Assembly (NCBI RefSeq): GCF_010728325.1
Contig: NZ_AP022570.1
Location: 2,666,001-2,730,000 of the forward strand
DNA from: Mycolicibacterium poriferae
GTDB lineage: Bacteria > Actinomycetota > Actinomycetes > Mycobacteriales > Mycobacteriaceae
Reading direction: 5' to 3'
DNA length: 64,000 nt
A program made the position numbers and the translations under genes. The notes beneath the pieces were generated by a model. It had not been told where the DNA came from and ran no database searches. It worked only from the letters and a program-made list of their open reading frames with translations. Positions 7,393-31,826 of this stretch are shown here, in pieces. Every line of letters starts with the position of its first letter. The first letter of the stretch is position 1.

Positions 7393-7418
7393 TTTACAAG
7401 AAATCGCCCGAGTGTCAC
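7393..7418 (-). promoter_or_regulatory. Island operator B (TTTACA-N14-TGTCAC)
   Basis: 26-bp imperfect palindrome in front of the aldehyde dehydrogenase operon. Read on the minus strand it is GTGACA, 16 bases, TAAAGC, so it also looks like a -35/-10 pair whose -10 ends 8 bases before the ATG at 7382. One of eight island copies with identical arm spacing. Confidence 0.7.
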
Positions 7419-7447
7419 GCGTTCGTGACGACCGGGCCGAGCCGCTG

Positions 7448-7993
7448 TCAGCCGGTCTTGATGCCCACCGCGTGCCGCAGCTGCGCCAGGAACTGGTCGT
7501 CATCGTCGCTGCGCACGATGTAGTGCGACACCGCCACACGGATGGCCGTCGCCGCCTTGACGGCGCCGTTGGGGCCCGGAAGCAGCTTCTCCAGCTGGGC
7601 GCGCATGTCCGGAATGATGTGTCCCAGCCGCGCGATCACGACCTCGGGCTCGATATCGACGACTCGAACCCCGGAGTAGGAGCGCTGATAGGCGACGATG
7701 AACTGCATCGCGGCATCGACGCGCTCGTTGCCGCGCAGACCGGCGGTGGCCTTCGCGATGCCGGTTTCGAACATTTCCCGCTCATAGATCCCGAACGCTT
7801 CGAGCAGGGCCGCCTTGTCGGCGAACCACCGATACAGCGTGGGGCGTGACACCCCGGCCTGCAGGGCCACCTCGGACAGGCTGAGCTTGGTCTGACCGTG
7901 ACGGCCCAGCACTTCGGCCGTCGCGGCCAGGATGCGGTTTCTCGTCGAGGTGTCCTCGGCGAGTTCGGGGCGCTCGGATGCTGGGTGGTTCAC
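7448..7993 (-). CDS. TetR-family repressor 1 of the catabolic island
   Basis: A 181-residue TetR/AcrR-type regulator. The N-terminal HTH is clear: RILAATAEVLGRHG, LSLSEVALQAGVSRPTLYRW. The body is helical ligand-binding domain. It is closely similar to the second TetR at 12879-13454, including the recognition helix (SRPTLYRWF against SRPTLYRYF) and DIEPEVVIAR against DVEPDQVIRR, so both probably read the same operator. GTG start at 7993; operator A lies 14 bases upstream, suggesting autoregulation. Transcribed toward the aldehyde dehydrogenase operon. Confidence 0.92.
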   Translation of the reverse strand: MNHPASERPELAEDTSTRNRILAATAEVLGRHGQTKLSLSEVALQAGVSRPTLYRWFADKAALLEAFGIYEREMFETGIAKATAGLRGNERVDAAMQFIVAYQRSYSGVRVVDIEPEVVIARLGHIIPDMRAQLEKLLPGPNGAVKAATAIRVAVSHYIVRSDDDDQFLAQLRHAVGIKTG

Positions 7994-8006
7994 GTACCTG
8001 GCCTGT

Positions 8007-8032
8007 CTTACGGGTTCGACAACGATCGTAAA
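8007..8032. promoter_or_regulatory. Island operator A (CTTACG-N14-CGTAAA)
   Basis: Diverged member of the island palindrome family with the same 14-base spacing but C/G in place of A/T at the inner arm position, 14 bases upstream of the GTG start of TetR 1. Likely the autoregulatory site. Confidence 0.55.
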
Positions 8033-8075
8033 GCGTCCCGTCGGTACAGACCGACGGCACGCCCGGCAATGTCGG

Positions 8076-9224
8076 TCACAACGACTTCCTGAGCAGCGCC
8101 ACAGTCTCGAGGTCAGCCAGCGCCGCCAGGCTGCGGTCCACGCCCTTGAGGGCGATGTCCTCGGCTTGCATGCCGCCCATCCCCGCCGTGATCAGCGCCG
8201 CCACATACGGATACAGCGCAGCCTGGCGGTAGCGATCCCACAGATCGTCTCGGTCGAGCTCCGGTCCGCCGCCGGCGGACAGCGCGCCCCGATAGACATC
8301 CAGCAGCTCGCGCTGCGTGGCCTGGCGGTCCGCGGCCGTCATCGACGTCACCAACGTGTAGGCCAGCTCGCGGCTGGGGTGACCGCGACGCACAGCCTGC
8401 CAGTCCAGCAGCCCGGCCCGGCCGGCGCGGAAGTACACGTTTCCCGGGTGGGCGTCACCGTGCATGACGGCGTGCGGCCCGCGGTCGACGAGTGCGGCCA
8501 GTGCGCGATAGTTCTCGTTGATGAAGCGGCCGCGCTCCAGCGGCAGTTCGGTGCGCTGCGCCATCCGCTGCGCGGAGGTCCTCAGCAGCGGCGCGGTGAG
8601 CAGTGAGGCGCTGTCCGCCGACGCGGAGTACACCCAGCCCAGCGGACCGGTACCGGCCGCCTGCGGCAGTCGACCCCAGAACGTCCGGTGCAGCTGAGCC
8701 AACAGCTCGACCACCAGGGCGGCCCGGTCGGGATCGATCGGGTGCAGCGTGTCGGGGAATTCACACGGGGGTGCGCAGGGGTCCGCCAGGTCTTCGAGCA
8801 CCAGGACGAACCGGCCCGTCCACGGGTCGAAGGCGGAGCCGTACGACGTCGGCACCCCGGTCAGCTCGGGCGCCAGCTGGCGGTAGAAACGGGTCTCGGT
8901 GTCGGCGAGGTTGCCGAGTTCACCCATCAGCCGGGTGGCGACCGTCTCGGCCGCCATCTTGACGAACACGGACGCGGGGACGTCGTCGCCGGTCAGCGTG
9001 AGCCGCGCCCGCGAGGATGTCCCGGCATCACCGTCGATCACCTCGACCGAAGCCACGGGCCGCCCGATCAGTCGCGCCAACGCTGCCGCGTCGAGATCGG
9101 CAACGGTGCGGGGCGTCCGGCGCAGGCGCCCGATCGCCGCGTCGGTCCCGATCCGCCGCATACCGCGGCCCAGATGTGCTGCCAACCCGAGGGCGGGGGC
9201 CACCCGATCGTCGATGATGGACAC
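8076..9224 (-). CDS. Aminoglycoside phosphotransferase-like kinase (APH/ChoK fold)
   Basis: A 382-residue kinase-like protein. The catalytic Brenner motif is present as HGDAHPGNVYF, and the metal-binding aspartate as LLDWQAV, followed by RELAYTLVTSM. In mycobacteria such proteins near acyl-CoA dehydrogenases and CoA transferases are usually annotated as phosphotransferases of unknown substrate, not resistance enzymes; that is the likely case here. GTG start at 9224 is supported by AGGAGG six bases upstream. Divergent from the CoA transferase, with operator C between them. Confidence 0.85.
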   Translation of the reverse strand: MSIIDDRVAPALGLAAHLGRGMRRIGTDAAIGRLRRTPRTVADLDAAALARLIGRPVASVEVIDGDAGTSSRARLTLTGDDVPASVFVKMAAETVATRLMGELGNLADTETRFYRQLAPELTGVPTSYGSAFDPWTGRFVLVLEDLADPCAPPCEFPDTLHPIDPDRAALVVELLAQLHRTFWGRLPQAAGTGPLGWVYSASADSASLLTAPLLRTSAQRMAQRTELPLERGRFINENYRALAALVDRGPHAVMHGDAHPGNVYFRAGRAGLLDWQAVRRGHPSRELAYTLVTSMTAADRQATQRELLDVYRGALSAGGGPELDRDDLWDRYRQAALYPYVAALITAGMGGMQAEDIALKGVDRSLAALADLETVALLRKSL

Positions 9225-9309: not shown

Positions 9310-10494
9310 ATGGCGGGTCCGTTGGAGGGGCTGCGTGTCATCGAGCTGGGCGTATGGGTCGCCGGCCCGGCCGCCGGAGGGATTCTGGCGGACTGGGGTG
9401 CCGACGTGATCAAGATCGAGCCGCCTGCGGGTGATCCGGCCCGGACATTCGGCCGCATGCTCGGGATCCCGCCGCACGATCGTCAGCACGAGAGCCCGCC
9501 CTTCGAAATGGACAACCGCGGAAAGCGCAGCGTCGTACTGGATCTCACCACCGACGACGGTAGAGCACACGCCTTGGACCTGCTCACCGATGCCGACGTG
9601 TTCATCACCAACATCCGCACCGGTGCGTTGCGGCGCATCGGGCTGGACTTCGAGTCCCTGACCGCGGCCAACCCCCGGCTGGTGTACGGGTTGATCACCG
9701 GATACGGCAACGACGGGCCGGATGCCGACCGCCCCGCATACGACGTGGCCGCGTTCTGGGCACGGGCGGGCCTGGCGCATCTGTTGACCCGGCCCGGGGA
9801 CACCCCGCCTTTTCAGCGCGGCGGTATGGGAGACCATTCGGTCGGGATGACCCTGGCCGGGGCGGTCTGCGCCGCCCTCGTCGCCCGTACCCGTACGGGC
9901 GCCGGCCAGCTGGTCTCGACGTCGCTGTACCGCCAAGGTGCCTACACCGTGAGCTTCGACCTCACGACGTTTCTGATCAGCGGCCAGCCCATCGCGATCG
10001 GACAGCGCGAAACGATGGGCAACCCGTGCATGAACAACTACACCGCCGGGGACGGCCGCCGGTTCTGGCTGGTGGGGTTACAAGGGGATCGGCACTGGCC
10101 GGCGTTGTGCGCCGCCGTGGGCCGGCCGGAGTGGCTGGTCGACGAACGCTATGCGACGGCCCGTGCCCGGGCAGTCAACGCGGCCGGCTTGGTCGCCGAA
10201 CTCGATGCCGTGTTCGCTGCCAAACCGCTCGACGAGTGGGCCGAAGCCTTTGGCGCGCAACCGGAACTGTTCTGGTCGCCCATCAACTCGATGGAAGACG
10301 TGGTGGCTGACGAGCAGTTCCACGCCGGCGGTGGAGTCGTGTACGTGCCCGCCCAGGACGGCTCGAGCGTCCCGATGGTCGCCACACCTGCCGACTTCTC
10401 GGCGACCCCGTGCGACGTGCGCGGGTGCGCACCGGCGCTGGGCGAGCACACCGAGGGCGTACTGGCCGACAAGCGCACGAATCACGCCCGCTAA
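9310..10494 (+). CDS. Family III CoA transferase (CaiB/BaiF type)
   Basis: A 394-residue CaiB/BaiF-type enzyme that moves CoA between acyl groups, probably to activate the carboxylic acid formed by this pathway. Seen: N-terminal GLRVIELGVWVAGPAAGG, ADVIKIEPPAGDPAR, NRGKRSVVLDL, the region GGMGDHSVGMTLAGAV where the family's catalytic aspartate lies, and RTRTGAGQLVSTSL. The ATG at 9310 follows AAGGGGAG. The stop TAA at 10492-10494 is created by the IS insertion: the two TA bases are the target duplication and the last A belongs to the element; the empty site would end in TAG. Confidence 0.93.
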   Translation: MAGPLEGLRVIELGVWVAGPAAGGILADWGADVIKIEPPAGDPARTFGRMLGIPPHDRQHESPPFEMDNRGKRSVVLDLTTDDGRAHALDLLTDADVFITNIRTGALRRIGLDFESLTAANPRLVYGLITGYGNDGPDADRPAYDVAAFWARAGLAHLLTRPGDTPPFQRGGMGDHSVGMTLAGAVCAALVARTRTGAGQLVSTSLYRQGAYTVSFDLTTFLISGQPIAIGQRETMGNPCMNNYTAGDGRRFWLVGLQGDRHWPALCAAVGRPEWLVDERYATARARAVNAAGLVAELDAVFAAKPLDEWAEAFGAQPELFWSPINSMEDVVADEQFHAGGGVVYVPAQDGSSVPMVATPADFSATPCDVRGCAPALGEHTEGVLADKRTNHAR

Positions 10495-11327
10495 AGCGTG
10501 TCGAACAACTGGCTGCGGTCGAGTCTTCGGAGTAGTAGGGCGATTTGGCTGAGGTAGACGAAGCCTTCGTGCGAGGCGAGGGTGGTTTCGTAGTGGCGGT
10601 CGATGCGGCGGCAGTGGTTGATCCAACCGTTTGTGCGTTCGACCACCCAGCGTCGCGGTTGGACGATGAAGCCGTGTCCTGGCTTGGGTCCGGAGACCAC
10701 CTCAACGGTGACACCAGCCTTGGCCGCAGCGGCGGCGACGGTCTGACCGGTGTAGCCCTTATCCACCCACACGTGACTGATGGTTGGCACGATCCGCTTC
10801 GCCTTGCGGAGCAGCTTCGGGAATGCTGCCCGGTCCTGCACGTCGGCTTCGGTGACGACGGCGGCGACCAGCGCACCGGCTGAGTCGACGAGCACATGCC
10901 GTTTGACGCCGTCGACCTTCTTTGCCCCGTCGAATCCGCGCGGTCCGGCCACCGGGGACGCCTTGACGCTGGAGGAATCAACGACGGCTGCGGTGGGTCG
11001 TCTGCGGCGGCCGGAGCGAGTACGGACCTCGCCGCGGGCCGCGGTCAGGATTCGCGCCCATGTGCCGTTGCGGCACCAGAGCAGAGAGTGTTTGTGCGCC
11101 GCTGACCACGACACGGTGAAGTCGTGCGGCAGATGTCGCCAGGCGCATCCGGTGCGCAGCACGTACAAGATGGCGTCGAGGTACTCGCGCCACCGCTGCG
11201 GTGGGCAGGGCCGCCCACCTTTGGGATGTTTCGGGACGAGGAAGCGGGCGATGCGCGCCCACGCGGTGTCGGACAGATCGGAGCGGTACCGGCGGCGCCG
11301 ATCAGGTTTCGGGTCACATGACCACAA
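10491..11327 (-). CDS. IS5-family DDE transposase
   Basis: A 278-residue transposase of the IS5 superfamily (IS427-like). Start region RSDLSDTAWARIARFL is the typical DUF4096-like N-terminus. The catalytic triad is visible as AAVVDSSSVKA (first Asp), HVWVDKGYTG (second Asp) and RWVVERTNGW (Glu), with the conserved RGFDGAKKVDGVKRH between. The frame reads through the left inverted repeat and stops at TAG formed by target bases, so the stop codon is supplied by the YTAR insertion site. The gene appears intact. Confidence 0.93.
   Translation of the reverse strand: MWSCDPKPDRRRRYRSDLSDTAWARIARFLVPKHPKGGRPCPPQRWREYLDAILYVLRTGCAWRHLPHDFTVSWSAAHKHSLLWCRNGTWARILTAARGEVRTRSGRRRRPTAAVVDSSSVKASPVAGPRGFDGAKKVDGVKRHVLVDSAGALVAAVVTEADVQDRAAFPKLLRKAKRIVPTISHVWVDKGYTGQTVAAAAAKAGVTVEVVSGPKPGHGFIVQPRRWVVERTNGWINHCRRIDRHYETTLASHEGFVYLSQIALLLRRLDRSQLFDTL
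10494..10510 (+). repeat. Left terminal inverted repeat of the IS5-type element
   Basis: 17 bases AAGCGTGTCGAACAACT, identical to the reverse complement of 12863-12879. Confidence 0.93.
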
Positions 11328-11402
11328 ATCGTCATCACGGGTACCGACACGACTGCGCTGGCCAGCGCAACTTGTCAGCCAGTCATGAGACGCTCAATGG
11401 TG

Positions 11403-12820
11403 ATGGCGCGCCACACCACGTTCCGGCTCTGTCTCGACCCCACGGTCGAGCAGTGTGAGGTGCTGGCCCGTCATGCCGGGGCGTCGCGGTTCGCGTTCAA
11501 CCAATGCCTACGGCTGGTGAAAACCTCGCTCACCCACCGCAAAACCGACCCGGACATCGAGGTGCCGTGGACGGGGTTTGATCTGATCAACACCTTCAAT
11601 GCGTGGAAGAAAACCGAGGCCGCCGGCCGGGTATTCGCTGTCGGTGCCCGCGGCGAGACTGAGGTGCGGGTGACCGGTTTGGCGTGGCGGGGCCAGGTGT
11701 GTCAGCAGGTGTTCGAGGAAGCCGCTGTCGACCTCGGTAGAGGGTTGGCGGCATGGTCTGATTCACGGTCGGGCAAGCGCAAAGGCCGCCGCGCCGGGTT
11801 CCCACGGTTCAAGAAGAAAACCGGCGACATCCCGTCGTTTCGGCTGCGCAACAAGCACCCCAAGGGCAAACCCGCCGCGATCCGTATCGGCGACAACGAC
11901 CGGCCCCGCTGCCCGGCATTGGTGCTGTTGCGGTGCATGACGACACCCGCCGGCTGCGGCGCATGCTGGGCAAGGGACGGGCGAAGATCCTCTTCGCCAC
12001 GATCAGTCATCGCGGGGGCCGGTGGTGGATCTCACTCAATATCGAGGCCGCCGATCTGCACCCAGCCCATCAGCACCCCGTCCGCCCCGACGACGGCGGC
12101 TGGGTAGGGGTGGATCGCGGCCTGTCGGCGTTCCTGGTCGCCGCCACTGCAGACGGCAGCGAGGTCGCCCGCATCGATGACGCGCCCAAGGCGCTGGCCA
12201 CCGGTCTCAAGCAGCAGCGGCGGTTGTCGAAGTCGTTGTCACGCAAGAAGAAAGGATCACGAAACCGCAAGGATGCCGCGGCCCGGCTGGGACGGCATCA
12301 CCATCGTGTCGCCAACGTGCGCCGCCATTTCCTGCACCAGGTATCGGGCCAGCTGGTCAAGACCCACGACCGGATTGTCATCGAAAACCTCAACGTGACC
12401 GGAATGCTGCGCAACCATCGGCTGGCCCGCGCCATCTCCGACGCCAGCTGGTCGGAGTTCGCGCGGCTGTTGCGGTACAAGCAGGCGTGGCGGGCCGGGC
12501 AGCTCATCGAAGCCGACCGGTGGTATCCATCGACCCGTCTGTGCCCTGAGTGCGGGGACATCGACAGTTCGATGACCTTGGCGGATCGGGTGTTCACCTG
12601 CGGATGCGGGCATACCGCCGACAGAGACGCCAACGCCGCGCGGAATCTGGCCCGCTGGGGCCAGGGCCAGCACGACACCTCAACCGATCCCCGGACCCCC
12701 AAGCAACGGGGCCGGGCCACCAAAGCCCGCCGACGGGACGGCGCTGGCCAACACCCTCGTGTTGGCGAAACCAGCCCGAATGACGCGGGAACCGACGTTC
12801 ACACCGCACCCGCGGCCTGA
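11403..12820 (+). pseudogene. tnpB: TnpB (RuvC-like RNA-guided nuclease family), frameshifted
   Basis: TnpB/OrfB-type passenger broken by a frameshift near 11905-11912. The N-terminal part reads from 11403 (FRLCLDPTVEQCEVLARHAG) to IRIGDNDRPR; the rest continues in another frame as LPGIGAVAVHDDTRRL. The residues lost at the junction suggest a small deletion. RuvC residues are all kept: GVDRGLS, IENLNVTGML, DRDANAARNLAR, as is the four-cysteine finger CPECG ... FTCGCG. It is divergent from the DDE transposase, with 75 bases between. A guide RNA, if any, would lie between 12700 and the right end. A sequencing error cannot be excluded. Confidence 0.85.
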
Positions 12821-12862
12821 ACCAACGGACGCCCGAGAAGGGCGGTGCCGAACACTCAACAG

Positions 12863-12879
12863 AGTTGTTCGACACGCTT
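12863..12879 (-). repeat. Right terminal inverted repeat of the IS5-type element
   Basis: 17 bases, the exact complement of the left end at 10494-10510; followed by the TA target duplicate. Confidence 0.93.
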
Positions 12880-13454
12880 TAGGAGCACCGGCCGTCCGCG
12901 TCTGAGACAGCGTGGCGTGGTGGCGGGGCGAATTGCGTGACACGTGCGGCATGTCGAAGCTGCGCGAGGAAATCGGCGCTGTCGTCGCTGTGAACCAGGT
13001 ACTGCGAAATCGCCAACCGCACCGCCGTCGCGGCCGACAGTCCGGAATCGGGCCCGGTGCACAATCGCTGCAGCCGCTCACGCATCAGCGGAATGATCCG
13101 GGCGACCCGCCTGATCACCTGGTCGGGTTCGACGTCGACCATCCGCAGGCCGGGATAGGACAACTGGTAGCGCACGATCACCTGCAGCGCGGCGTCGAGT
13201 TTCTGGGCGGCGGGCACGGCGGCGGTGGCCTCGGCGATGGCCCGCTCGTACAGATGGCGTTCCCACACCGCGAAATCGTCGAGCAGGACTTGCTTGTCGG
13301 AGAAATAGCGATACAGCGTGGGGCGGGACACCCTTGCCGCGGCCGCGACGTCCGACAGCGACAGCTTGGTGGTGCCGTTGCGTCCCAGCACCTCTGCGGT
13401 CGCGGCCAGGATCCGCTGGCGAGTCGAGCTGTGCTCGTCGGCAAGGTCCGACAT
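12879..13454 (-). CDS. TetR-family repressor 2 of the catabolic island
   Basis: A 191-residue TetR regulator, paralogous to TetR 1. HTH: RILAATAEVLGRNG, LSLSDVAAAARVSRPTLYRYF. The next block LRMVDVEPDQVIRRVARIIP matches TetR 1 well, so the ligands may also be related. Two ATG codons are possible (13460 and 13454). I prefer 13454 because the TAAAGT of operator D ends 6 bases upstream, fitting a leaderless transcript. The stop TAA includes two bases of the IS target duplication and one base of the IS; the empty site would give TAG. Divergent from the ferredoxin gene. Confidence 0.92.
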   Translation of the reverse strand: MSDLADEHSSTRQRILAATAEVLGRNGTTKLSLSDVAAAARVSRPTLYRYFSDKQVLLDDFAVWERHLYERAIAEATAAVPAAQKLDAALQVIVRYQLSYPGLRMVDVEPDQVIRRVARIIPLMRERLQRLCTGPDSGLSAATAVRLAISQYLVHSDDSADFLAQLRHAARVTQFAPPPRHAVSDADGRCS

Positions 13455-13462
13455 TGGCATAC

Positions 13463-13488
13463 TTTACAAAATTAGCCAGCAATGTCAC
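13463..13488 (-). promoter_or_regulatory. Island operator D (TTTACA-N14-TGTCAC)
   Basis: Between TetR 2 and the divergent ferredoxin. On the minus strand it reads GTGACA, 16 bases, TAAAGT, which ends 6 bases before the preferred ATG of TetR 2. It could control both genes. Confidence 0.7.
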
Positions 13489-13520
13489 GCTGTTTCGGTG
13501 CAGGTCCACCCGGAGCAATC

Positions 13521-13712
13521 GTGAGGATCGACGTCGTTCTGTCCCGGTGTACGGGCCACGGCATCTGCGAGACGATCGCCGAGGACGTCTTCGAGGTCCA
13601 GGATGACGGGACCGTGGTCATTAGCGGTGCCGAGCGACCCGAATCCGACCGCGACCGGATGATCCGCGCGGTCACCCAATGCCCGGCCGCTGCACTGCGG
13701 CTGATCGACTGA
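13521..13712 (+). CDS. 3Fe-4S ferredoxin, P450 redox partner type
   Basis: A 63-residue ferredoxin that passes electrons to a cytochrome P450. The cluster motif is RCTGHGICETIAEDVF with the last ligand in QCPAAAL, so the second cysteine position of a 4Fe-4S motif is histidine (CxxHxxC ... CP), as in many mycobacterial P450 ferredoxins with a 3Fe-4S cluster. GTG start at 13521; starting further upstream would add residues unlike the family. The only P450 nearby is at 16305-17534, so it is the likely partner. Operator D lies 33 bases upstream. Confidence 0.92.
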   Translation: MRIDVVLSRCTGHGICETIAEDVFEVQDDGTVVISGAERPESDRDRMIRAVTQCPAAALRLID

Positions 13713-13759: not shown

Positions 13760-14617
13760 CTACGAGGAACGCGTTTTCGCGGATTCCTCCCTCGGTGGAC
13801 GGGGGCGCACGAGCACTGACTGCTGGATGGCGCCCACCGGTCCGCTCTCGTCGAACAGCGTGCCTGATGTCACCCCGATGCCGTCGGGGCCGTAGCTCGT
13901 CTCGGCGCGGATGCCGATCCACTCGCCGTCGGGCTCGCGGTGGATGTGCACCACCAGATCAGTGTTGAGAAAGGTCCACCTGCGGATGTCGAGCTTGGCG
14001 CCGATGCCGTTGGCGTCGTCGGCGACCGCGAACAGCCGCTCGAGCGCAGTCATCGTCTCACCCTTGACGAGATCGACCTCGGGGCGGAGCCACGACTCGC
14101 CCGGGCCCTGGTTCAGGGGCGGGGTGAGCCAGCGCCAATCCAGGCTGTGCACGTAGTTGCGCTCCCAGTCTTTCTTCATGTCTCGGCCGCGCGCTTGCGA
14201 CAAGGGCCGCAGCGGCTCGACGGGGGCGTGGGTGATCGCGGCCGTGTCCAGAGTCTGCAGCCGCCAGCCGCTGGCCCGGGCGACCGGCCGTGGCGATCCG
14301 TCGGGCCCCACCGCGAGCAGCTCGGCCCCGATCAGTTCGATCTGTGTTCCGGAGCGCTCGCGGGTGGCCCGCACCCACAGATCTCCGTCCGCCGGCACCG
14401 GGCCGAGCAGGTCGACCAGTACCCGGCTGAGCCGGGTGTCGTCGCGGGGGGCACACCGCTGCAGTGCGCGGACCAGCAGCGCGGACACCGGGGCCGCGTG
14501 CTGGATCGCGGCTGACCAGGTGGAGCGAACCAGATCGGTCGCCACGAAGTGCTCGCCGTAGCTGTCGGCGTCGTCGATCTTCACGTAATAGGAGTCGGAC
14601 ATGCGGGAATCGGGCAT
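13760..14617 (-). CDS. Acyl-CoA thioesterase, TesB-like double hotdog
   Basis: A 285-residue thioesterase-superfamily protein that would hydrolyse an acyl-CoA to acid and CoA. The N-terminal half (DSYGEHFVATDLVRSTWS, HAAPVSALLVRALQRCAP, RLSRVLVDLLGPVP) and the C-terminal half (DIRRWTFLNTDLVVHIHREP, GEWIGIRAETSYGPDGIG, GTLFDESGPVGAIQQSVLVR) are the two hotdog units. ATG at 14617 lies seven bases after the SMP-30 stop with GAGGA upstream, so the two genes form an operon. Confidence 0.85.
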   Translation of the reverse strand: MPDSRMSDSYYVKIDDADSYGEHFVATDLVRSTWSAAIQHAAPVSALLVRALQRCAPRDDTRLSRVLVDLLGPVPADGDLWVRATRERSGTQIELIGAELLAVGPDGSPRPVARASGWRLQTLDTAAITHAPVEPLRPLSQARGRDMKKDWERNYVHSLDWRWLTPPLNQGPGESWLRPEVDLVKGETMTALERLFAVADDANGIGAKLDIRRWTFLNTDLVVHIHREPDGEWIGIRAETSYGPDGIGVTSGTLFDESGPVGAIQQSVLVRPRPPREESAKTRSS

Positions 14618-14624
14618 CGGGTCC

Positions 14625-15509
14625 TCAGCTGCACCTGGCGGCGGGCACGTCGACGGTCACCGCGTCCAAGCGGGACAGCTTCGTCCCGCGCAGCCGCTCC
14701 GGGTAGGCGTCGGTGGCGGACAGCAGGAACAGGGTGCGGCCATCGGGTCCGCCCAGCGTGCACGCGATGGCGGTGCGGTCGCCGATGTCGATCCGATCGC
14801 TGACCGAATACCCGGTCCCGGTGGTTACGATCCGTTCGAAGCGGTGGGCGAGTGTCATCGCCGTCCACACCCCGCCCTTGTCGTCGACGCAGATGCCGTC
14901 CGGGGGGCCGGCCAAGCCTTCGGCGACAACCGTTCTGTCCGAGAGACTTCCGTCGTCATCGATGGCGAACGCAGAAAGTCTGCGTGCCGTGGACTCGGCG
15001 ACGATCAGCCTCGAATGGTCGCTGGTGATGGCCATGCCGTTGGGGAAGTCGAGATCGCGGGCCACGACGGTGGCGCGCCGGCCGGGTTCCCGGTCGGGGT
15101 CGATCCGCACGATCACCCCGCCCGATCGGGCCTGGGAGCCGACATAGGCGCAGCCGTAGCGGTCGATGACCATGTCGCCGAGCGGGGCGGGAGCCAGCTC
15201 CGCCACGTCGGCGACCACCGCGACCGTGTCGCCGTCGTAGCTCAGCACCTGCCGGTCCTCGGTGGACACGATCAGCAGGGTGCCGTCGGGGCGGAAGCCG
15301 AGCCCGGAGGGTGCATGTCCCGGCAACTCCAGAGTGCTCATCTCGCCGTGCAGGGTCACCGTGTGCACGGCCTCGCCGAGCATGTCCGAGAACCACACGA
15401 GCCCCTCGAACCACCGCGGACCCTCGCCGAAGCAGAACCCTGAGGCAAGCGGGGCGGGCCCCGTCGCGGCGGCTTCGAGGTCGAGGCCGACCCCTACTTT
15501 ACAAAACAC
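14625..15509 (-). CDS. SMP-30/gluconolactonase-family hydrolase
   Basis: Six-bladed beta-propeller metal hydrolase, typically a lactonase. Metal-site motifs are visible: GEGPRWFEGLVWFSDM (Glu), DFPNGMAIT (Asn) and DGICVDDKGGVW (Asp). With a BVMO in the adjacent operon, opening of a lactone is a natural role (inference). The start is unclear: there is no in-frame ATG or GTG between operator E and the conserved region. The nearest candidate is the GTG at 15509, inside the operator; another is upstream at 15605. About 294 residues with the GTG. Operon with the thioesterase. Confidence 0.82.
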   Translation of the reverse strand: MFCKVGVGLDLEAAATGPAPLASGFCFGEGPRWFEGLVWFSDMLGEAVHTVTLHGEMSTLELPGHAPSGLGFRPDGTLLIVSTEDRQVLSYDGDTVAVVADVAELAPAPLGDMVIDRYGCAYVGSQARSGGVIVRIDPDREPGRRATVVARDLDFPNGMAITSDHSRLIVAESTARRLSAFAIDDDGSLSDRTVVAEGLAGPPDGICVDDKGGVWTAMTLAHRFERIVTTGTGYSVSDRIDIGDRTAIACTLGGPDGRTLFLLSATDAYPERLRGTKLSRLDAVTVDVPAARCS

Positions 15510-15523
15510 CTCACAAGTGTCAC
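15498..15523. promoter_or_regulatory. Island operator E (TTTACA-N14-TGTCAC)
   Basis: Between SMP-30/thioesterase (minus) and the seven-gene P450-BVMO operon (plus). On the minus strand it reads GTGACA, 16 bases, TAAAGT. Since no start codon follows closely on the minus strand, its main target may be the divergent operon. Confidence 0.7.
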
Positions 15524-15603
15524 GCTCGCTGGGTGCAGCTGTCAACCCGCCGTGGGGCAGCCACGGGCGAAGGGACACCTCCGATGGGGATTGCGCCGTG
15601 GCC

Positions 15604-16308
15604 ATGAAGACCTACCACCGCCACGCCCTGCTCTACCTGCACGAGACCATCGATCTCGGGTCCGCAGGCAGCGAGCGCTTTGTCACGGAGTTCGACGAGG
15701 TCTACCACCCGATGATGGGTGACCTCGGGGCCCGGCTGTTCGCGCTGTGGGAAACCACCCCCTACAACGGGCACTGGCCACAGGTCACGGTCATCTGGGA
15801 GATCGACGCGTTCGCCGACTACGCCCGCATCGGTCGTGCCCAGGCCCGCGGTGGCAGCCATGCCGCGGCAGCGGCACAGTGGTCGATGTTCCTGCGCGAC
15901 AGCGGTGCTCGCGGGGAGGGTCGAATCATGTACGCAGGGCGCAGCAACCGGACGCTGGCTCAGTTGCAGGCCGACAACGTCACGGCGGGCCTGGTGATCC
16001 AGGAGATCATGCAGACCAAGCCGGGACGGCAGGACGACTACATCCGCGAACTGGAACGACTCTACGTTCCGTGGTCGGAATCGACCGGCAAAACGTGGCT
16101 GGGCTCGTTCATCACGACCTTTCGTTTCAACGAGGTGATCCACTACTGGGCGCTGGAAGGGGACTGGGACTGTTTCGAGAACCACTACCCGTCGTGGAAA
16201 GAGCATCCACCCGCTGAGATCGTCACCTGGATGAGCGTCGCGCCCGCGCTGCGTGACGGGTGGGAGGACTCCATCCTGGCCGCGCTGCCTCCTTCCCCGC
16301 TGCGATGA
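15604..16308 (+). CDS. NIPSNAP/Dabb-like two-domain protein, function unknown
   Basis: A 234-residue protein, first gene of the P450-BVMO operon. Two halves look like repeated ferredoxin-like dimeric alpha/beta barrels: the first begins MKTYHRHALLYLHETIDLG, the second AGLVIQEIMQTKPGRQDDYI, each followed by an amphipathic helix and a strand with Trp/Tyr. That is the pattern of NIPSNAP-like proteins; the assignment is tentative. ATG at 15604 chosen over GTG 15598. Its stop overlaps the P450 ATG as ATGA. Confidence 0.6.
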   Translation: MKTYHRHALLYLHETIDLGSAGSERFVTEFDEVYHPMMGDLGARLFALWETTPYNGHWPQVTVIWEIDAFADYARIGRAQARGGSHAAAAAQWSMFLRDSGARGEGRIMYAGRSNRTLAQLQADNVTAGLVIQEIMQTKPGRQDDYIRELERLYVPWSESTGKTWLGSFITTFRFNEVIHYWALEGDWDCFENHYPSWKEHPPAEIVTWMSVAPALRDGWEDSILAALPPSPLR

Positions 16309-17534: not shown

Positions 17535-17535
17535 C

Positions 17536-18504: not shown

Positions 18505-18505
18505 T

Positions 18506-22536: not shown

Positions 22537-23004
22537 TCATCCCAACTCGCGGGCTACCGCGGCATGATAGGCGTCGATGTTGGCCGGGTTGACGGTGCGA
22601 AAGAAGCCGTCGGGCAACGGATGATCTCTGTACGCCTCGATCGTCATCGTGCGACGGAACAGAGTGATGTTCTCCCCGGGACGGCTGAACTCGTACTGGA
22701 CCGTGATGCGCCCCGGCATACCGCCGTCGCCGTCACTGTCGTGGCCCAAATTGCCGACCGAGGTGAACATCCACAGCTTCGGACGGGTCGCCATCGCCAG
22801 ATGCCAGGTGAAGATGCGGTTTCCGTCCGGACCCGTCTCGGTCCACGTGTCGCCCACCTCCAGCGGAAGCTTCTCGGGCACGCGGCCGACGTGCGCGCTG
22901 CCGGGGTAGGTCTTCGGCCAATTGGCCGGATTGGTCACGAAGTCGTAGATCTGTTCGGGCGGCTGGGTGAACGCCGTTTCCGACGTCGTCGTCACGATCC
23001 CCAC
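22537..23004 (-). CDS. SRPBCC/polyketide cyclase-like protein
   Basis: A 155-residue START-like (SRPBCC) protein with a hydrophobic ligand cavity: PPEQIYDFVTNPANWPKTYPG at the N-terminus (written here without its full run), VGDTWTETGPDGNRI, TVQYEFSRPGENITLF and the long C-terminal helix. Role unknown; may bind or cyclise a pathway intermediate. GTG at 23004 preferred because GGAG precedes it; GTG at 22995 is possible. Divergent from the acyl-CoA dehydrogenase across operator F. Confidence 0.8.
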   Translation of the reverse strand: MGIVTTTSETAFTQPPEQIYDFVTNPANWPKTYPGSAHVGRVPEKLPLEVGDTWTETGPDGNRIFTWHLAMATRPKLWMFTSVGNLGHDSDGDGGMPGRITVQYEFSRPGENITLFRRTMTIEAYRDHPLPDGFFRTVNPANIDAYHAAVARELG

Positions 23005-23052
23005 TGTGCTCCGTCCTGCGCCGTGGCCCGCTGAGGTGCGAACCCCCCAAGC

Positions 23053-23078
23053 TTTACAAAATATCGAGTCGATGTCAC
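23053..23078 (-). promoter_or_regulatory. Island operator F (TTTACA-N14-TGTCAC)
   Basis: Between the SRPBCC gene and the divergent acyl-CoA dehydrogenase. On the minus strand it reads GTGACA, 16 bases, TAAAGC. Confidence 0.7.
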
Positions 23079-23114
23079 GCTTCGATGGATGTGACAGGGA
23101 AGGGAGCGCCAGCG

Positions 23115-24271
23115 GTGGACTTCTCCGAAGTAGTGCTCTGCGATGAGGATCGGTTGTTCCAGACCGAACTGGGGCTTTCCTTGCCGATGTGGTCACCGCC
23201 GACGTGATCAGCCGCGATCGCCAGACCGGGGACAACTTCGACGAGGGTGTCCACCTGGCCCTGGGCGCCGCGGGATACCTCGAGCGGGATTGGCTCCCGG
23301 AGAGCCAGGGCGGGTTCAGCGCGGTCCAACGCCGGATCTGGGAGCTCGAGATCGGGCGGGCCCACACGCCGTGGTTCCATTGGGGCACGACGGCGATGGT
23401 GGCGAACGCCGTGCACGACTTCGGCTCCGACGAACTGCGCGACGAGGTGTTGGCCAAGACGCTGTCCGGGCACTACCGATTGTGCCTGGGATTCACCGAA
23501 CCCGAGGGCGGCTCCGACGTCGCGACCTGTAAGACCCGCGCGGTGCGTGACGGTGACGGCTGGGTCATCAACGGATCCAAGATGTTCACCTCCAATGCCC
23601 ACCATGCGCATTACGTGTTCCTGCTGACGAACACCAACCCGGGCGCCCCCAAGCATCAGAGCCTGACGATGTTCCTGGTGCCCCTCGACGCCGCCGGGGT
23701 CGACATCCAACCGATCCGCACCGTGGACGGGGACCGCACCAACATCACGTTCTACAGCGACGTGCGCGTGCCGGACCGGTACCGCCTCGGCGACGTGGAC
23801 GGCGGCTGGACGGTGCTGCGCACGGCTCTGGATGCCGAGCACGGCACCGGCGAACGTGACGAGAGCGGGCTGCAGAAGATCGCCACCATGACCGAGCATG
23901 CGCTGTTGCTCGCCGAGGGCCTCGATGCTGTCGCCGGCTCAGGGGCCACCTCGGTCGTGGGTGAGGACTCGGTGGCCTACCGGCTGGGTCGCAGCGTGGC
24001 CCGCATGGAAGCCGCGCTCAGCACGCCGGGCATGTACGGCCGCGTCGCAATCGCCACGGCGTTGCGGGAGCTCAGCCCAGAGCTGATGGATGTGCAGGGC
24101 GCCTCCGGCGGCCTCGCCTCGGCCGACCTCGACGCGCAGTACCTGTTCCGTCTGGGAGTGCCGATGGGAATCTACGGTGGCACGTTGGAGGTCTTTCGCA
24201 ACATGATCGCTCAACATGCGCTCGGCCTGGGGAGGCCCGCCTACGCCCCCGCTGCGGCCGGACGCTCCTAG
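23115..24271 (+). CDS. Acyl-CoA dehydrogenase, with a frameshift near the 5' end
   Basis: FAD-dependent acyl-CoA dehydrogenase. The main frame (from 23189) shows LGFTEPEGGSDVATCK, GWVINGSKMFTSNA and GVPMGIYGGTLEVFRNMIAQ. The N-terminal helix is encoded in another frame starting at GTG 23115 behind AGGGAG (VDFSEVVLCDEDRLFQTELG) and joins the main frame only if one base is added near the GGGG at 23171-23174. So either one G was lost in a G run (mutation or sequencing error), or translation starts at ATG 23189 and gives a 360-residue protein without the first helices. Stop codon overlaps that of the convergent luciferase-like gene in CTAG. Confidence 0.82.
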
Positions 24272-26274: not shown

Positions 26275-27294
26275 TCACGAACCAGAGAGCCGAACCAGTG
26301 TCTTGCCGATGTTCACACCGGTGAACAAGCCGTTGAGTGCGTCGACGCAGGATCCGATGCCCTCGAAGATGTGCTCGCGGTGCACCAACAGCCCCTGCTC
26401 CTCCCACCGGCGCAGCGCGGCGAAGGCCTCGTCGAAGCGGCCCCACTCGTCGAGCGCATTGAACCCCTGCATCAGTGCCGTCTTGGCGAGCAGGTTGACG
26501 TAGTTGGCCGGTCCCGGGTGCTCACCGGTCAGATAGCTGGAGATCACCCCGCACAACACGACTCGCGCCTTGGGTGCCAGGCGCCCGAGCACGGCGTCCA
26601 GAATGGGGCCGCCCACGTTGTCGAAGTAGACGTCGACCCCCTTGGGGCAGTGCGTCTTCAGCGCCGAGGGCAGGTCGTCCTCGCGGTAGTCGATGCACGC
26701 GTCGAACCCGAAATCCTGCACCACCGCCCGGCACTTGTGTGCACCGCCGGCGATGCCCACCACCCGCGCTCCGGCGATCTTGGCGATCTGACCGGCCACC
26801 GAGCCGGTGGCGCCGGCCGCCGCGGAAACCACGACCGTCTCCCCGGCTCCGGGGCGTCCGATGCCCGTCATACCGAAGTATGCGGTGGCGCCGGTCGGCC
26901 CGTAGATCGACATCACCGCACGCTGGTCGACCTGATCGCCCGGGCCGGGCACGGGCGTCGTGAACAGGTCGTCACGCACGAGCGCGTACTCCTGGAAGCC
27001 GGTCAGTGTCGTCACGATGTCGCCGACAGAGTAGGCGTCGCAGCGTGTTTCGATGACTTCGCCGATACCGGCAGCGCGGATGACCTCGCCGAGCCCGACC
27101 GGCGGCAGGTAGCCGGGCTGATCGTCCAGCCACGTCCGGGCGGCGGCGTCGATCCCGACGTAGGTGGTGCGTACCAACGCCTCACCGTCGGCGGGACGAG
27201 GTGCCGCCGTGGTCACCAGCTCGGTGTCACCGGGCGCGACCAGCCCCCGGGGACGGCGGCGCAACAGGATCTGGCGATTCGTCAGCGTCGACAC
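26275..27294 (-). CDS. NADPH-dependent MDR reductase (quinone oxidoreductase / prostaglandin reductase type)
   Basis: A 339-residue zinc-free MDR protein. NADPH motif VVVSAAAGATGSVAGQIAK is the hallmark of the leukotriene/prostaglandin reductase branch; also GVDVYFDNVGGPILDAVL and VNLLAKTALMQGF. It probably reduces or oxidises an alpha,beta double bond of an enone or enoyl-type compound. Stands alone on the minus strand, 65 bases after the fadE-like gene. Confidence 0.88.
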   Translation of the reverse strand: MSTLTNRQILLRRRPRGLVAPGDTELVTTAAPRPADGEALVRTTYVGIDAAARTWLDDQPGYLPPVGLGEVIRAAGIGEVIETRCDAYSVGDIVTTLTGFQEYALVRDDLFTTPVPGPGDQVDQRAVMSIYGPTGATAYFGMTGIGRPGAGETVVVSAAAGATGSVAGQIAKIAGARVVGIAGGAHKCRAVVQDFGFDACIDYREDDLPSALKTHCPKGVDVYFDNVGGPILDAVLGRLAPKARVVLCGVISSYLTGEHPGPANYVNLLAKTALMQGFNALDEWGRFDEAFAALRRWEEQGLLVHREHIFEGIGSCVDALNGLFTGVNIGKTLVRLSGS

Positions 27295-27359: not shown

Positions 27360-29204
27360 TCAGAATGCGGCCTCGGGCAGGTCCATCAGCTCGGTGTCGA
27401 CCGCGTCGACGATGGTGCGCAGCGCGGTCAGCGGCGGCAGCATGTTCGCCGTGAAAAACGCCGCGGTGGCGATCTTGCCCTCGTAGAACGCTGCGTCGGC
27501 GCGGCCGGGATCGGCCTCGAGCGCGGTGTGTGCGATGCGCGCCTGCTCGAGCAACCGCCAGCCGATCAACAGGTCGCCGACAGCCAGAAGCAGCCGCACC
27601 GAGACCAATCCCACCTTGTAGATCTCGCCTGGCTGCTCCGAGGCGCCCAGCAGGTAACCGGTGACGGTGCCGATCATCGCCTGAACGTCCTGCAGCGCGG
27701 TCGCCAGCAGGGCGGCCTGCGGCTTGAGGCGCCCGTCGCAGGCCTGGACCGTGTGGGCGATCTGGGCGGCGACATGGGCCAGCGCCTCGCCGCGGTCGCG
27801 GGCCACCTTGCGGAAGAAGAAGTCCATCGCCTGGATCGCCGTGGTGCCCTCGTAGAGCGAATCGATCTTGGCATCGCGGATGTACTGCTCGATCGGGTAG
27901 TCCTGCAAGAAACCGGATCCGCCCAGCGTCTGCAGCGATTCGGTCAGCATCTCGTAGGCCCGTTCGGAACCCACCCCTTTGACGATGGGCAGCAGCAAGT
28001 CGTCGACCCGGTGGGCCATGTCCGCGTCGGCGCCGGAAACATGCTGCGCCACATCGCTGTTCTGGTGGGCGGCAGCGTACATGTACAACGCTCGAAGTCC
28101 CTCGGCATACGACTTCTGGGTCATCAGCGAGCGGCGGACATCGGGGTGACGGATGATGGGCACCCTCGGCGCGGTCTTGTCGGTCATCTGGGTCAGATCG
28201 GCGCCCTGCACACGCTCCTTGGCGTACGCCAGCGCGTTGAGGTATCCGGTGGACAGCGTGCCGGCGGCCTTGACGCCGATCGTCATGCGCGCGTGCTCGA
28301 TGACGGTGAACATCTGCGCTATCCCGCGGTGCACGTCGCCGACCAGATAGCCGACCGCGGGCCTGTCGTGCACGCCGAAGCTGAGCTCACACGTCGGCGA
28401 AGCCTTGAGGCCCATCTTGTGCTCCAGTCCGGTGGCGTACACCCCGTTGCGCTCACCGATCTCGAGGGTCTGCGGATCGAAGAGGAACTTGGGCACGTAG
28501 AACAGACTCAACCCCTTCGTGCCCGGCCCGGCGCCCTCAGGGCGCGCGAGCACGAGGTGGAAGATGTTCTCTGCGGTGTCGCCGACGTCGCCGCCCGAGA
28601 TGAATCGCTTGACGCCCTCGATATGCCATGTTCCGTCGGGTTGGGCGATGGCCTTGGCGCGTCCGGCGCCGACATCGGAACCGGCGTCCGGCTCGGTCAG
28701 CACCATGGTGGCCGCCCAGCCCCGCTCCAGGCCTTCGGCCGCCCACCGGCGCTGCTGTTCGTTACCCTCGGCGGCGAGGGCGTGCGCCATCGCGGGGCCG
28801 AGCGCGTAGAAGAAGCCCACCGACGGATTGGCGCACAGCAGCATCTCGTTGATGGCCCAGGCCAAGGCTGCAGGCGCCGGAAGCCCACCGATCTCCTCGG
28901 CGATGCCGACCCGCCACCAGTCGGACTCCTTGACCGCGGCCACCGTGCGCGTGATCTCTTCGGACACCGAGATCGCATGGGTGGTGGGGTCGAAGGTCGG
29001 CGGATGGCGGTCGGCGTCGGCGAACGACGCTGCGATCGGGCCCTGTGCGAGGCGGGCCGCTTCGTCGAGCATGGTGCGCGCGGTGTCGGTGTCCAGGTCC
29101 CCGTAGCCGCCGCCGGCCAGGACGTCGCCCAGCGACAGCACCTCGAAAAGGTTGAACCCGATGTCCCGCACATTGGCGATGTAGTGGCTCGACGCGTGTG
29201 TCAT
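27360..29204 (-). CDS. FadE5-like acyl-CoA dehydrogenase
   Basis: A 614-residue long-form acyl-CoA dehydrogenase with a C-terminal extension, like mycobacterial FadE5. N-terminal [15 protein letters not shown] matches that family. Other marks: [68 protein letters not shown] with the base Glu in [10 protein letters not shown]. FadE5-type enzymes accept a broad range of acyl chain lengths. Upstream sits a perfect palindrome at 29258-29279. Confidence 0.93.
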
Positions 29205-29287: not shown

Positions 29288-29989
29288 TCACCGAGGCATG
29301 TGATACCGGTCACGCCCCTGCGGCAGCTCGGCCTGCACGACGGCGCGATCGGCATCGAAGCTCACCATCGATGCGATCGGCGAACTCTCGGGCAGGGGGG
29401 CCTCGTAGCTCCACGCCACGTCGGGGACGACCATGTCACCGACCACCGCGCTCCAATAGGTCGCCCACCCCTTGTAGTTGCAGTATGTCGAGGTGTCCGA
29501 GCGCCGGAGGACGTCGGTACGCACGGCGTCGACGCTGACGTACAGCCGGGGTGCCAGCGATGTCTCGAACACGATCGTGGTGTCTGCGGTGTCGACCACG
29601 GTGACCCCGAGGATCTCCACGCGCAGCCGTCGGCGGGTGGGTCGGCAATCGATGCGGTGGTACGGGTTGGGCGGGTAGTGCACCAACGGGCGGCCCTCCT
29701 CGAGCCAGGTGTCCACCGCCGTCCACGGCACCGACACGAACCCGGGTGCCTCGAGAACCGGGGTGGTGGGGAGCTCGGTGACGTCCTCGGCGGCGAACGC
29801 ATAGCTCAGCGGATGGCCGCGCCGGTGCACCATCAATGCGCCCTCGGTGTCGATCAGGGTGCGGTCTCCGAGCACGGCCTGGATCCGGCGGGGGTGTGGC
29901 TCGACGTAGACCAGGTCGCCCTCGACGGTGGGGTTGAAGGTGCCCGCCCGGTCGTTGCCCAGCGGCCCGGTCCCCGCGGTGAGACTCAT
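29288..29989 (-). CDS. DUF427 protein, two domains
   Basis: A 233-residue protein with two DUF427 units, small beta-barrel domains of unknown activity. The second has the family pattern: DVLRRSDTSTYCNYKGWATY followed by DVAWSYEAPLPES. ATG at 29989 is the first in-frame start after operator G. Divergent from the WS/DGAT gene. No function can be given. Confidence 0.85.
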   Translation of the reverse strand: MSLTAGTGPLGNDRAGTFNPTVEGDLVYVEPHPRRIQAVLGDRTLIDTEGALMVHRRGHPLSYAFAAEDVTELPTTPVLEAPGFVSVPWTAVDTWLEEGRPLVHYPPNPYHRIDCRPTRRRLRVEILGVTVVDTADTTIVFETSLAPRLYVSVDAVRTDVLRRSDTSTYCNYKGWATYWSAVVGDMVVPDVAWSYEAPLPESSPIASMVSFDADRAVVQAELPQGRDRYHMPR

Positions 29990-30073: not shown

Positions 30074-30099
30074 CTTACAAAATCGGTAGCAGATGTCAC
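30074..30099 (-). promoter_or_regulatory. Island operator G (CTTACA-N14-TGTCAC)
   Basis: Between the DUF427 gene and the divergent WS/DGAT gene. On the minus strand it reads GTGACA, 16 bases, TAAGCT. Confidence 0.65.
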
Positions 30100-30242
30100 G
30101 AGGGCCGCCCGGGCTCGGGGCGCGGGCCGGCGTCGAACGCCCCGACACGCGGTGACGGATCGGCGGGAACGTCACATCCGGGAGGCGAAACACGGTGCAA
30201 TGGGTACCCGGAGGCGGCATCGACACGACGAACGGGGGATGG

Positions 30243-31673
30243 GTGAAGCGGCTCAACGGTGTGGACGCGATGATGCTCTACGGTGAGACGCCGGAAGTTC
30301 ACATGCACACCCTCAAGATCGGTGTGCTCGATGTGTCGGCGCTGCCCGGCTACGACTTCGAGATGTTCCGCAGGCTGGCGGCACCGCGCCTCCACGCGCT
30401 TGCGCCACTGCGCTGCCAACTGGTCGACATCCCCATGAAGTTCCACCACCCGATGTGGGTGCAGAACGCCGAGATCGATCTGGACTATCACGTCCGCCGC
30501 GCCCACGTCGCCGCTCCGGGTGGGCGCCGCGAACTCGATGAGTTGATCGGTGACATCGCCGGGACCCCGCTGGACCGTGACCATCCACTCTGGGTCATGT
30601 ATGTCGCGGAGGGGCTCGCGGACAACCGGATCGCCGTCATCCACAAGGTGCATCACGTTCTGGCAGACGGGATGGCGTCGGCCAACCAGATGGCGATGGC
30701 CATCCAGTCGGAACAGCCTGAGGTCGGTGGGGAGCTCGGCGACGCGCCGCCCGACTCCCGTTCGGCGGCAAACCTGCTCCGCGCCGCCGGCCGTGATCAC
30801 CTGCACCAGTTGGCCCGGTTGCCCGGGCTGGTCGGCGAGACGGTCGCCGGCATAGCGCGCGTGCGCAGGCGGGCCCGGGAGCGCGGTGTGCAACCTGACC
30901 TGGCGCGCAACTTCGCGCCCCCGCAGACCTTCCTCAACCACGTCGTTTCCCCGGGACGGCGGTTCGCGACCGCGCCGCTCGCGCTCGACGACGTCAAGCA
31001 GACCGCCAAACACCTCGGCGTCACCCTCAACGACATCGTGCTGGCCACGGCTGCCGGGGCGCTGCGGGAACTGCAGCTGCGCTACGACGGGGCAGCGGGC
31101 TCGCCGCTGATCGCCGGGGTGCCGGTGAGCTACAACCCGTCTCCGCATCGCTTGATGGGCAACGAATTCACCTACATGACACCGTCGTTGCCGGTGCACA
31201 TCGCCGACCCGCTCGAGCGGGTGCAGCTGACCGCGACTGCGACGGCCATCGCCAAGGAGAACCACCGGTTGCTCGGACCGACGCTGCTGCCGTCATGGTT
31301 GACCTACCTGCCGCCCGCCACGACCCCGAGCGTGTTCCGCACCCAGGCGCGCCGGCTGGAGTCGGCGATGGTGATGAACCTGACCATCTCCAACGTGCCC
31401 GGCCCGCGGGAACGGGGCTTCATCGAGGGCGCCGTCGTCGACGAGATCTACTCCGTCGGTCCGATCGTGGCCGGGAGCGGGATGAACATCACGGTGTGGA
31501 GCTACGTCGACCAGCTCTCGCTGTCGGTACTGACCGACGACCGCACCCTCGGGGACCCCCATGAAGCGACCGACGCGCTGATGAACGCCTTCGCCGAAAT
31601 CCGTGCGGCAGCCGGACTGTCCGCCGACCTCACGCCGGTGGCGGCCGCCATGCCGGTCGCGCCCGCCCGCTGA
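30243..31673 (+). CDS. WS/DGAT acyltransferase (wax ester/triacylglycerol synthase)
   Basis: A 476-residue enzyme that transfers acyl-CoA to long-chain alcohols or diacylglycerol, forming storage lipids. The active site HHxxxDG is present as HKVHHVLADGMAS. The N-terminus KRLNGVDAMMLYGETPEVHM is standard, so I placed the start at GTG 30243, behind GGGGGA, rather than at 30195. PLD-type and C-terminal NVPGPRE blocks are kept. Presence in the island suggests acyl products are routed to storage lipid. Confidence 0.92.
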   Translation: MKRLNGVDAMMLYGETPEVHMHTLKIGVLDVSALPGYDFEMFRRLAAPRLHALAPLRCQLVDIPMKFHHPMWVQNAEIDLDYHVRRAHVAAPGGRRELDELIGDIAGTPLDRDHPLWVMYVAEGLADNRIAVIHKVHHVLADGMASANQMAMAIQSEQPEVGGELGDAPPDSRSAANLLRAAGRDHLHQLARLPGLVGETVAGIARVRRRARERGVQPDLARNFAPPQTFLNHVVSPGRRFATAPLALDDVKQTAKHLGVTLNDIVLATAAGALRELQLRYDGAAGSPLIAGVPVSYNPSPHRLMGNEFTYMTPSLPVHIADPLERVQLTATATAIAKENHRLLGPTLLPSWLTYLPPATTPSVFRTQARRLESAMVMNLTISNVPGPRERGFIEGAVVDEIYSVGPIVAGSGMNITVWSYVDQLSLSVLTDDRTLGDPHEATDALMNAFAEIRAAAGLSADLTPVAAAMPVAPAR

Positions 31674-31734
31674 CGATCTCGCGCCCGACGATCTCGCGCG
31701 CGGATGATCTCGCGCGCGGATGATCTCGCGGAAA
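31672..31734. repeat. Tandem repeat right after the WS/DGAT stop
   Basis: About four units of 15-16 bases, GACGATCTCGCGCCC then GATGATCTCGCGCGCG types, starting inside the TGA stop codon. No gene is read through it. Confidence 0.8.
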
Positions 31735-31800
31735 CGGCTGGCGGGAGTACTGTTTCGGTGCCGGTGCGTCGGCACGCCCACTGCCGATGCCCGCAGGCAC

Positions 31801-31826
31801 TTTACAGATCTTGCTCAAAGTGTCAC
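31801..31826. promoter_or_regulatory. Island operator H (TTTACA-N14-TGTCAC)
   Basis: 80 bases upstream of the unknown gene at 31906. No gene starts on its minus side, which argues that the element is an operator rather than only a directional promoter. Right edge of the regulon. Confidence 0.65.

Follow-up and report, generated by a model that had tools for sequence, protein, structure and literature searches.

What controls a block of oxidative catabolic genes that is interspersed with copies of one palindromic element? The question is raised by a 64,000-nucleotide stretch of the Mycolicibacterium poriferae genome (contig NZ_AP022570.1, positions 2,666,001 to 2,730,000; hereafter the window, with positions counted from its first base), in which two genes for TetR-family regulators, here denoted TetR1 and TetR2, lie among the copies. 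A first-pass annotation of the sequence had reported eight copies of a 26-bp operator, TTTACA-N14-TGTCAC (GTGACA-N14-TGTAAA when read on the other strand), and had proposed that both regulators bind it and thereby control one catabolic regulon of about 20 genes. Our analysis favours a closely related reading, to which we assign a probability of roughly 0.8: TetR1, and probably TetR2, would bind a 32-bp form of the palindrome at seven places and repress approximately 22 genes as a local regulon, until a pathway intermediate releases them.

Scanning of the window located exact copies at 7393, 13463, 15498, 23053 and 31801, a copy with one change at 30074 (CTTACA arm), and a further one-change copy on the opposite strand at 9262 (TTTACA-N14-TGTAAC); six of the seven have the same orientation. 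At three mismatches the window scan is close to chance (15 found, 13.2 expected), and the significance of the element therefore rests on its near-exact copies and on evidence from outside the window. Across the genome's 5,929,171 bases, exact NTTACA-N14-TGTCAC occurs six times, every time inside the window; the 32-bp form (see below), with up to three mismatches allowed, occurs five times, likewise only there, compared with two occurrences of a reversed control. Clustering at the target genes with rarity elsewhere in the genome is what distinguishes a single TetR regulon, and is the distribution found here; a motif common genome-wide, which the first-pass annotation had named as the outcome that would speak against its proposal, is not what we observe. 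A one-mismatch genome match at 4535014 was dropped, as it lies inside a long open frame. A matrix built from 195 relatives' sites, with the window left out and the near-identical strain L110 included, ranks 15498 and 7393 at the top, followed by 23053, 13463, 31801, 9262 and 30074; in 20 trials with Markov-simulated windows nothing exceeded the 6-bit reporting limit. Six of the sites are clearly intergenic, as had been claimed for all of them, and for 15498 this depends on the SGL gene (SMP-30/gluconolactonase-like) starting to the left of the site: its open frame passes through 15498 and on to 15605, and a search for start codons of long frames within 80 nt of the site found none.

The architecture of the element was defined using 80 named loci around TetR1 (1.49 Mb in total; the best 80 of 408), which hold 154 exact sites, distributed over 73 of the loci, and 42 sites that are one base off. 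The arms are separated by 14 bp in 154 cases and by 15 bp in one, with no other spacing seen over the range 8–20; some 60 permutations of the arms gave zero sites in the same loci. The relatives' consensus extends each arm by 3 bp (AGC/GCT), giving an imperfect palindrome of 32 bp, AGCGTGACAcTT-N8-TTTTGTAAAGCT, with arms AGCGTGACA and AGCTTTACA; the arms of operator 5 (23050–23081) match this consensus perfectly. Neither this extension, nor the fixed distance to two start codons, nor the near-symmetry of the site between the CaiB and APH genes (both described below) was part of the first-pass annotation. The 257 half-site pairs at N14 include 154 GTGACA/TTTACA, 42 TTTACA/TTTACA and one GTGACA/GTGACA, with a mean of 1.6 pairs at eight other spacings. 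Symmetric TTTACA/TTTACA sites fall at the divergent CaiB/APH pair in 37 of 42 cases, and a site is present in 53 of 54 orthologous CaiB–APH gaps.

For the weaker copy at 30074, seven of the eight orthologous gaps inspected retain 10–12 of the 12 arm bases, the eighth having nine, which is attainable by chance. In five fetched relatives (L203, L206, L207, L208 and L209) a TCTGTAAA-type site separates the orphan gene next to operator 7 from the DUF427 gene, and the WS/DGAT gene has therefore probably been inserted between them in the window. In 20 stretches of other genomes, picked for carrying sites, many of the window's gene modules are found again in a different arrangement, interspersed with sites that return at the same modules. 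Many exact sites occur in three genomes, G091 (18), G136 (9) and G357 (10), where the regulon may be larger.

The eighth reported copy, at 8007, did not withstand this comparison, leaving seven. It reads CTTACG-N14-CGTAAA, in which the innermost base of both arms differs, and the matrix of relatives' sites fails to recover it; in the genome, the looser palindrome TTACR-N14-YGTAA is hardly commoner than its control (five places versus three). At the corresponding position of 58 orthologous APH–TetR1 gaps TACGAT is found in 22 and both arms are kept in 11, with TACCAT instead in seven of 18 gaps inspected. Mycobacterial −10 elements have the form TANNNT, and 8007 is better read as the probable −10 box of TetR1's own promoter; a weak variant operator specific to the clade of this genome is possible.

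The site and its candidate regulator occur together across the genus. Among 148 genomes of the genus, sampled evenly, the exact GTGACA-N14-TGTAAA site is present in 117 (reversed control, nine) and a TetR1/2 homologue (TetR2 query, E ≤ 1e-12) in 123. The site is found in 117 of the 123 genomes with a homologue and in none of the 25 without (20 of these were listed and five obtained by subtraction), giving a Fisher p of 5e-23 that is only a guide because related genomes are non-independent. The site is present in each of the 65 genomes that have at least two homologues and in 52 of the 58 with a single one, which indicates that one regulator suffices. At the level of the order the site is present in 33 of 35 same-genus genomes and in 5 of 263 others, with the control present in 9 of these 263; outside the genus, the site is at background level. 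With the site tied to the regulator in this way, the proposal of one catabolic regulon gains support, its gene count being corrected to about 22.

Both regulators score well above the cut-off of 24 bits for the TetR_N helix–turn–helix domain (48.6 and 51.9 bits). They are paralogues with 58% identity and have VSRPTLYR in common in the recognition region, in agreement with the near-identical recognition helices noted earlier; TetR2 has only remote further matches in this genome (best E 8.5e-9). Most single-copy homologues in the fetched loci are nearer to TetR1, with TetR2-like ones present in a subset, and the closest named TetR1 loci (among the best 80 of 408) are those of Mycobacterium sp. 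PO1 (99% TetR1 identity) and then M. xanthum (90%). An AlphaFold model of TetR1 is all helical, with moderate confidence (pLDDT 76), and its top fold matches are FasR and Rv0078 (TM approximately 0.6); the modelled protein thus fits the TetR family, with a predicted all-helical fold and C-terminal ligand domain. The best PDB sequence match to both regulators is Mce3R (9b7y; E 3.9e-10 and 1.9e-6). In loci L061 and L072, the matched stretch of a TetR paralogue 50–51% identical to TetR1 is preceded by the operator, at 12 and 32 nt respectively. Given the shared recognition motif and the site directly upstream of these two paralogues, it is plausible that both TetR1 and TetR2 bind the operator. 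A paralogue of the same class (50–52% identity) in locus L076 has the same operator approximately 325 bp past the end of the matched stretch.

At two genes the site stands at a nearly rigid distance from the start of translation. An in-frame ALDH start codon follows TGTAAA after 9 or 10 nt in 30 of 30 exact-site cases, and for TetR2 the distance to the start codon is 9 nt in at least 52 of 56; the corresponding distances in the window are 10 nt for ALDH (aldehyde dehydrogenase) and 8 (or 2) nt for TetR2. This position fits the layout of a leaderless promoter, with GTGACA as −35, 16 bp, TAAAG as −10 and approximately 7 nt to the ATG; leaderless promoters place the end of the −10 some 6–8 nt ahead of an ATG or GTG serving as +1, and leaderless mRNAs are common in mycobacteria (PMC4633059). 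As the start codons of ALDH and TetR2 mostly lie 9–10 nt from the site, these genes probably give leaderless mRNAs whose core promoter the site overlaps. The first-pass suggestion that operator and −35/−10 coincide is supported at these two genes, and not at SGL, where the distance is not fixed. We would go further only tentatively, and at somewhat less than even odds: the half-sites may double as promoter elements (GTGACA as −35 and TGTAAAG as −10) whose identity sets the direction, making repressor site and promoter one 32-bp object, with a near-symmetric TTTACA-N14-TGTAAA version where CaiB and APH diverge. Such a composite switch may have been carried along in operon reshuffling across the genus.

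The promoter-like geometry, the fixed distance to the ALDH and TetR2 start codons and the common orientation of six window sites would also be expected if the element were a conserved promoter only (−35 GTGACA, −10 TAAAG), read by some sigma factor, and no repressor site. We consider this very unlikely, however, given the extension of the dyad by conserved flanks (AGC and GCT), the tight co-occurrence of the site with one TetR family, the symmetric versions at CaiB/APH, and the restriction of exact genome sites to this cluster.

A different assignment is suggested by work on Mycobacterium sp. VKM Ac-1817D, in which a palindromic 'motif X' occurs at 14 operons, of which 12 respond to phytosterol with a more than 3-fold rise, and has been assigned to an Rv0767c-type TetR (PMC6593523). 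That regulon likewise includes P450s, ALDH, alcohol dehydrogenase (ADH), SDR and several TetRs adjoining the motif (PMC6593523), and the present sites might belong to it. The ALDH of the window, although related, falls below the Rv0768-family cut-off (600 of 775 bits), and the Rv0768-family ALDH of this genome (951 bits) is encoded elsewhere. The TetR beside the latter has 21% identity to TetR1 (E 3.6) and 35% to TetR2 over 51 residues; the best palindrome upstream of this Rv0767c-type TetR is TGGACA-N2-TGTCCA, which we infer to be motif X, and the 20 kb around it contain no GTGACA-N14-TGTAAA with 10 or more of the 12 arm bases. Identity with the motif X regulon was rejected on the different TetR and the apparently different palindrome, in a comparison made without the published logo, and we regard it as slightly less likely still than a promoter-only element. 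Least likely is an obligate TetR1–TetR2 heterodimer whose two subunits are reflected in the unequal half-sites, for, while GTGACA/TTTACA is the commonest pair at N14 (154 of 257) and both paralogues are present in this genome, the same unequal site occurs in those 52 single-homologue genomes and symmetric sites exist (42 of 257), so that a heterodimer is not needed.

Several observations weigh against the repressor regulon that we favour. The exact site is missing from six of the 123 homologue-bearing genomes (G026, G066, G087, G094, G102 and G108): close to its TetR, G026 carries two sites that each depart from the pattern at one base, and inspection by eye identified ATTACA-N14-TGTAAT between APH and CaiB in G066 and a degenerate pair in G094, with no site seen within approximately 3.5 kb around the TetR genes of G087, G102 and G108. 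The distance to the SGL start is variable, being 8 nt in 12 of 46 cases, with a further 12 having no in-frame ATG or GTG in the stretch examined. Most of the −10 elements read TAAAGC and so lack the final T of TANNNT, and at 31801 the −10 side points to a geneless stretch in this genome. Finally, the regulators may act as activators rather than repressors.

Nonetheless, the proposed repressor circuit can be outlined as follows. TetR1, and probably also TetR2, would occupy the seven sites, possibly as two dimers per site, as suggested by the 20-bp separation of the half-sites (approximately two helical turns). At ALDH and TetR2 the operator appears to fill the core promoter (−35 GTGACA, N16, −10 TAAAGY), for which reason repressor binding would shut out RNA polymerase. 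Release of the repressor by a pathway intermediate, which may be an oxidised cyclic compound or a CoA thioester, would turn on the approximately 22 genes, among them those for P450/ferredoxin, ADH, Baeyer-Villiger flavin monooxygenase (FMO), esterase, lactonase, aldolase, ALDH, CoA-transferase and acyl-CoA dehydrogenase. The predicted role of the regulon is the oxidative catabolism of a hydrophobic substrate.

Features of the window related to the proposed regulon
Feature	Position	Strand	Remarks
Operator 1, 32-bp form	7390–7421 (core 7393–7418)	−	Directly upstream of ALDH; ATG 7382, 10 nt from TGTAAA
Operator 2, near-symmetric GTTACA-N14-TGTAAA	9262–9287	+	Between APH (−) and CaiB (+)
Operator 3	13460–13491	−	Upstream of TetR2 (ATG 13454 or 13460) and divergent ferredoxin
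Operator 4	15495–15526	−	Between SGL (SMP-30/lactonase-like) and NIPSNAP-P450 operon
Operator 5	23050–23081	−	Between SRPBCC/cyclase-like gene and acyl-CoA dehydrogenase
Operator 6, weaker copy	30074–30099	−	Between DUF427 gene and WS/DGAT gene
Operator 7	31798–31829	−	Upstream of orphan gene 31906–32502
Reported copy 8	8007–8032	−	Not supported as operator copy; probable −10 (TACGAT) of TetR1's own promoter
TetR1 (TetR_N)	7448–7993	−	Widespread paralogue
TetR2 (TetR_N)	12879–13460	−	Paralogue in subset of species
ALDH (Aldedh)	5898–7382	−	
SnoaL-like gene (5491–5901) and small open reading frame without Pfam match (4933–5484)	4933–5901	−	Probable ALDH operon
APH/EcKL-type phosphotransferase	8076–9224	−	TetR1 82 nt after, same strand
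CoA-transferase family III (CaiB)	9310–10494	+	
Small ferredoxin (Fer4)	13521–13712	+	
SGL, SMP-30/gluconolactonase-like (from 14625), and acyl-CoA thioesterase-like (13760–14617)	13760–15491	−	
Operon: NIPSNAP-like (below Pfam cut-off), cytochrome P450, Zn-ADH, HpcH/HpaI aldolase, SDR, Baeyer-Villiger-type FMO, alpha/beta hydrolase	15604–22505	+	
SRPBCC/polyketide-cyclase-like gene	22537–23004	−	Weak match
Acyl-CoA dehydrogenase	23189–24271	+	
DUF427 gene	29288–29989	−	Then acyl-CoA dehydrogenase 27360–29204 and curcumin/quinone-reductase-like 26275–27294, same strand
WS/DGAT acyltransferase	30195–31673	+	
Orphan protein, 198 aa	31906–32502	+	

The count of approximately 22 refers to same-strand genes behind the sites, with operon limits that we infer: ALDH with two small genes, APH–TetR1, CaiB, TetR2, ferredoxin, SGL with the thioesterase, the seven genes from NIPSNAP to the hydrolase, the cyclase-like gene, acyl-CoA dehydrogenase, DUF427, WS/DGAT and the orphan. 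The nearest PDB match of the P450 is CYP130, and the 120 listed of its 1991 homologues include no informative name; M. smegmatis has a P450 homologue with 79% identity. Among the monooxygenases matched by the FMO are those acting on cyclohexanone, steroids and phenylacetone. The gene set points to oxidation of a substrate that is hydrophobic and either cyclic or branched, comparable to the breakdown of camphor. The orphan protein has no Pfam match, and its best PDB match has an E value of 0.29; in many fetched loci its gene again adjoins DUF427, WS/DGAT, NIPSNAP or CaiB genes and has an operator close by. For the acyl-CoA dehydrogenase the open frame begins late, at 23189, and by eye its N-terminus likely lies in another frame (23116–23190).

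Between CaiB and TetR2, whose stop codons its ends overlap, lies a mobile unit (10491–12882) bounded by perfect inverted repeats of 20 bp. It encodes an IS5/DUF4096-type DDE transposase and, in two frames that overlap, a TnpB (OrfB_IS605, Cas12f1-like); the genome has another copy with 91% identity (G000:C1:2782241-2784646). Behind the ALDH operon, 1671–4760 encodes a 1029-aa, probably exported protein with an Asp/Ser/Ala/Thr-rich first third, for which no Pfam or NCBIfam match was found. Scanning the window for Rfam families and tRNAs gave no hits.

Several TetR-family systems offer comparisons. TtgR has TTTACA...TGTAA-type arms, as here, and the long operator of QacR is occupied by two dimers; such regulators control efflux genes, in contrast to the spacing of 14 and the catabolic genes seen here. 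In Pseudomonas, the TetR-family repressor CamR controls the cam operon, a P450/ferredoxin/ADH/Baeyer-Villiger pathway, in another phylum and with another gene set. The operators of KstR and KstR2 are short palindromes, and the gene content of their regulons differs from that described here. As proposed for the present case, these are mycobacterial TetR repressors with repeated sites, in their case over steroid catabolic genes, and KstR2 answers to a pathway intermediate (PMC6593523). Motif X and its Rv0767c-type TetR likewise cover several operons including P450, ALDH and SDR genes (PMC6593523, PMC4482099), but the TetR is another one, and its counterpart in this genome adjoins TGGACA-N2-TGTCCA. 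Mce3R is a double TetR with asymmetric, non-palindromic 25-bp sites (PMC11667970), whereas single TetRs and an imperfect palindrome are found here. The motifs of 30 conserved mycobacterial TetRs have been given as logos (PMC4482099), one of which may overlap the present operator; PMC10312376 and PMC10834601, in the parts available, have no bearing on this cluster. Among the records listed in searches of open-access papers, no title or abstract opening describes the motif or the cluster.

Because the site and its putative repressor accompany each other in most of the species sampled from the genus, the control circuit appears to be real; it is familiar in kind, and this genus-wide case appears to be unstudied. 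For mycobacterial researchers it offers an apparently unassigned regulon with a testable operator, a candidate regulator, approximately 22 genes and a predicted hydrophobic substrate, and one that is widespread, the regulator being present in 123 and the site in 117 of the 148 sampled genomes of the genus. The inducer could be searched for with a simple reporter and, given the length and rigidity of the site and its link to a single TetR family, membership of the regulon should be readable from sequence in other species.

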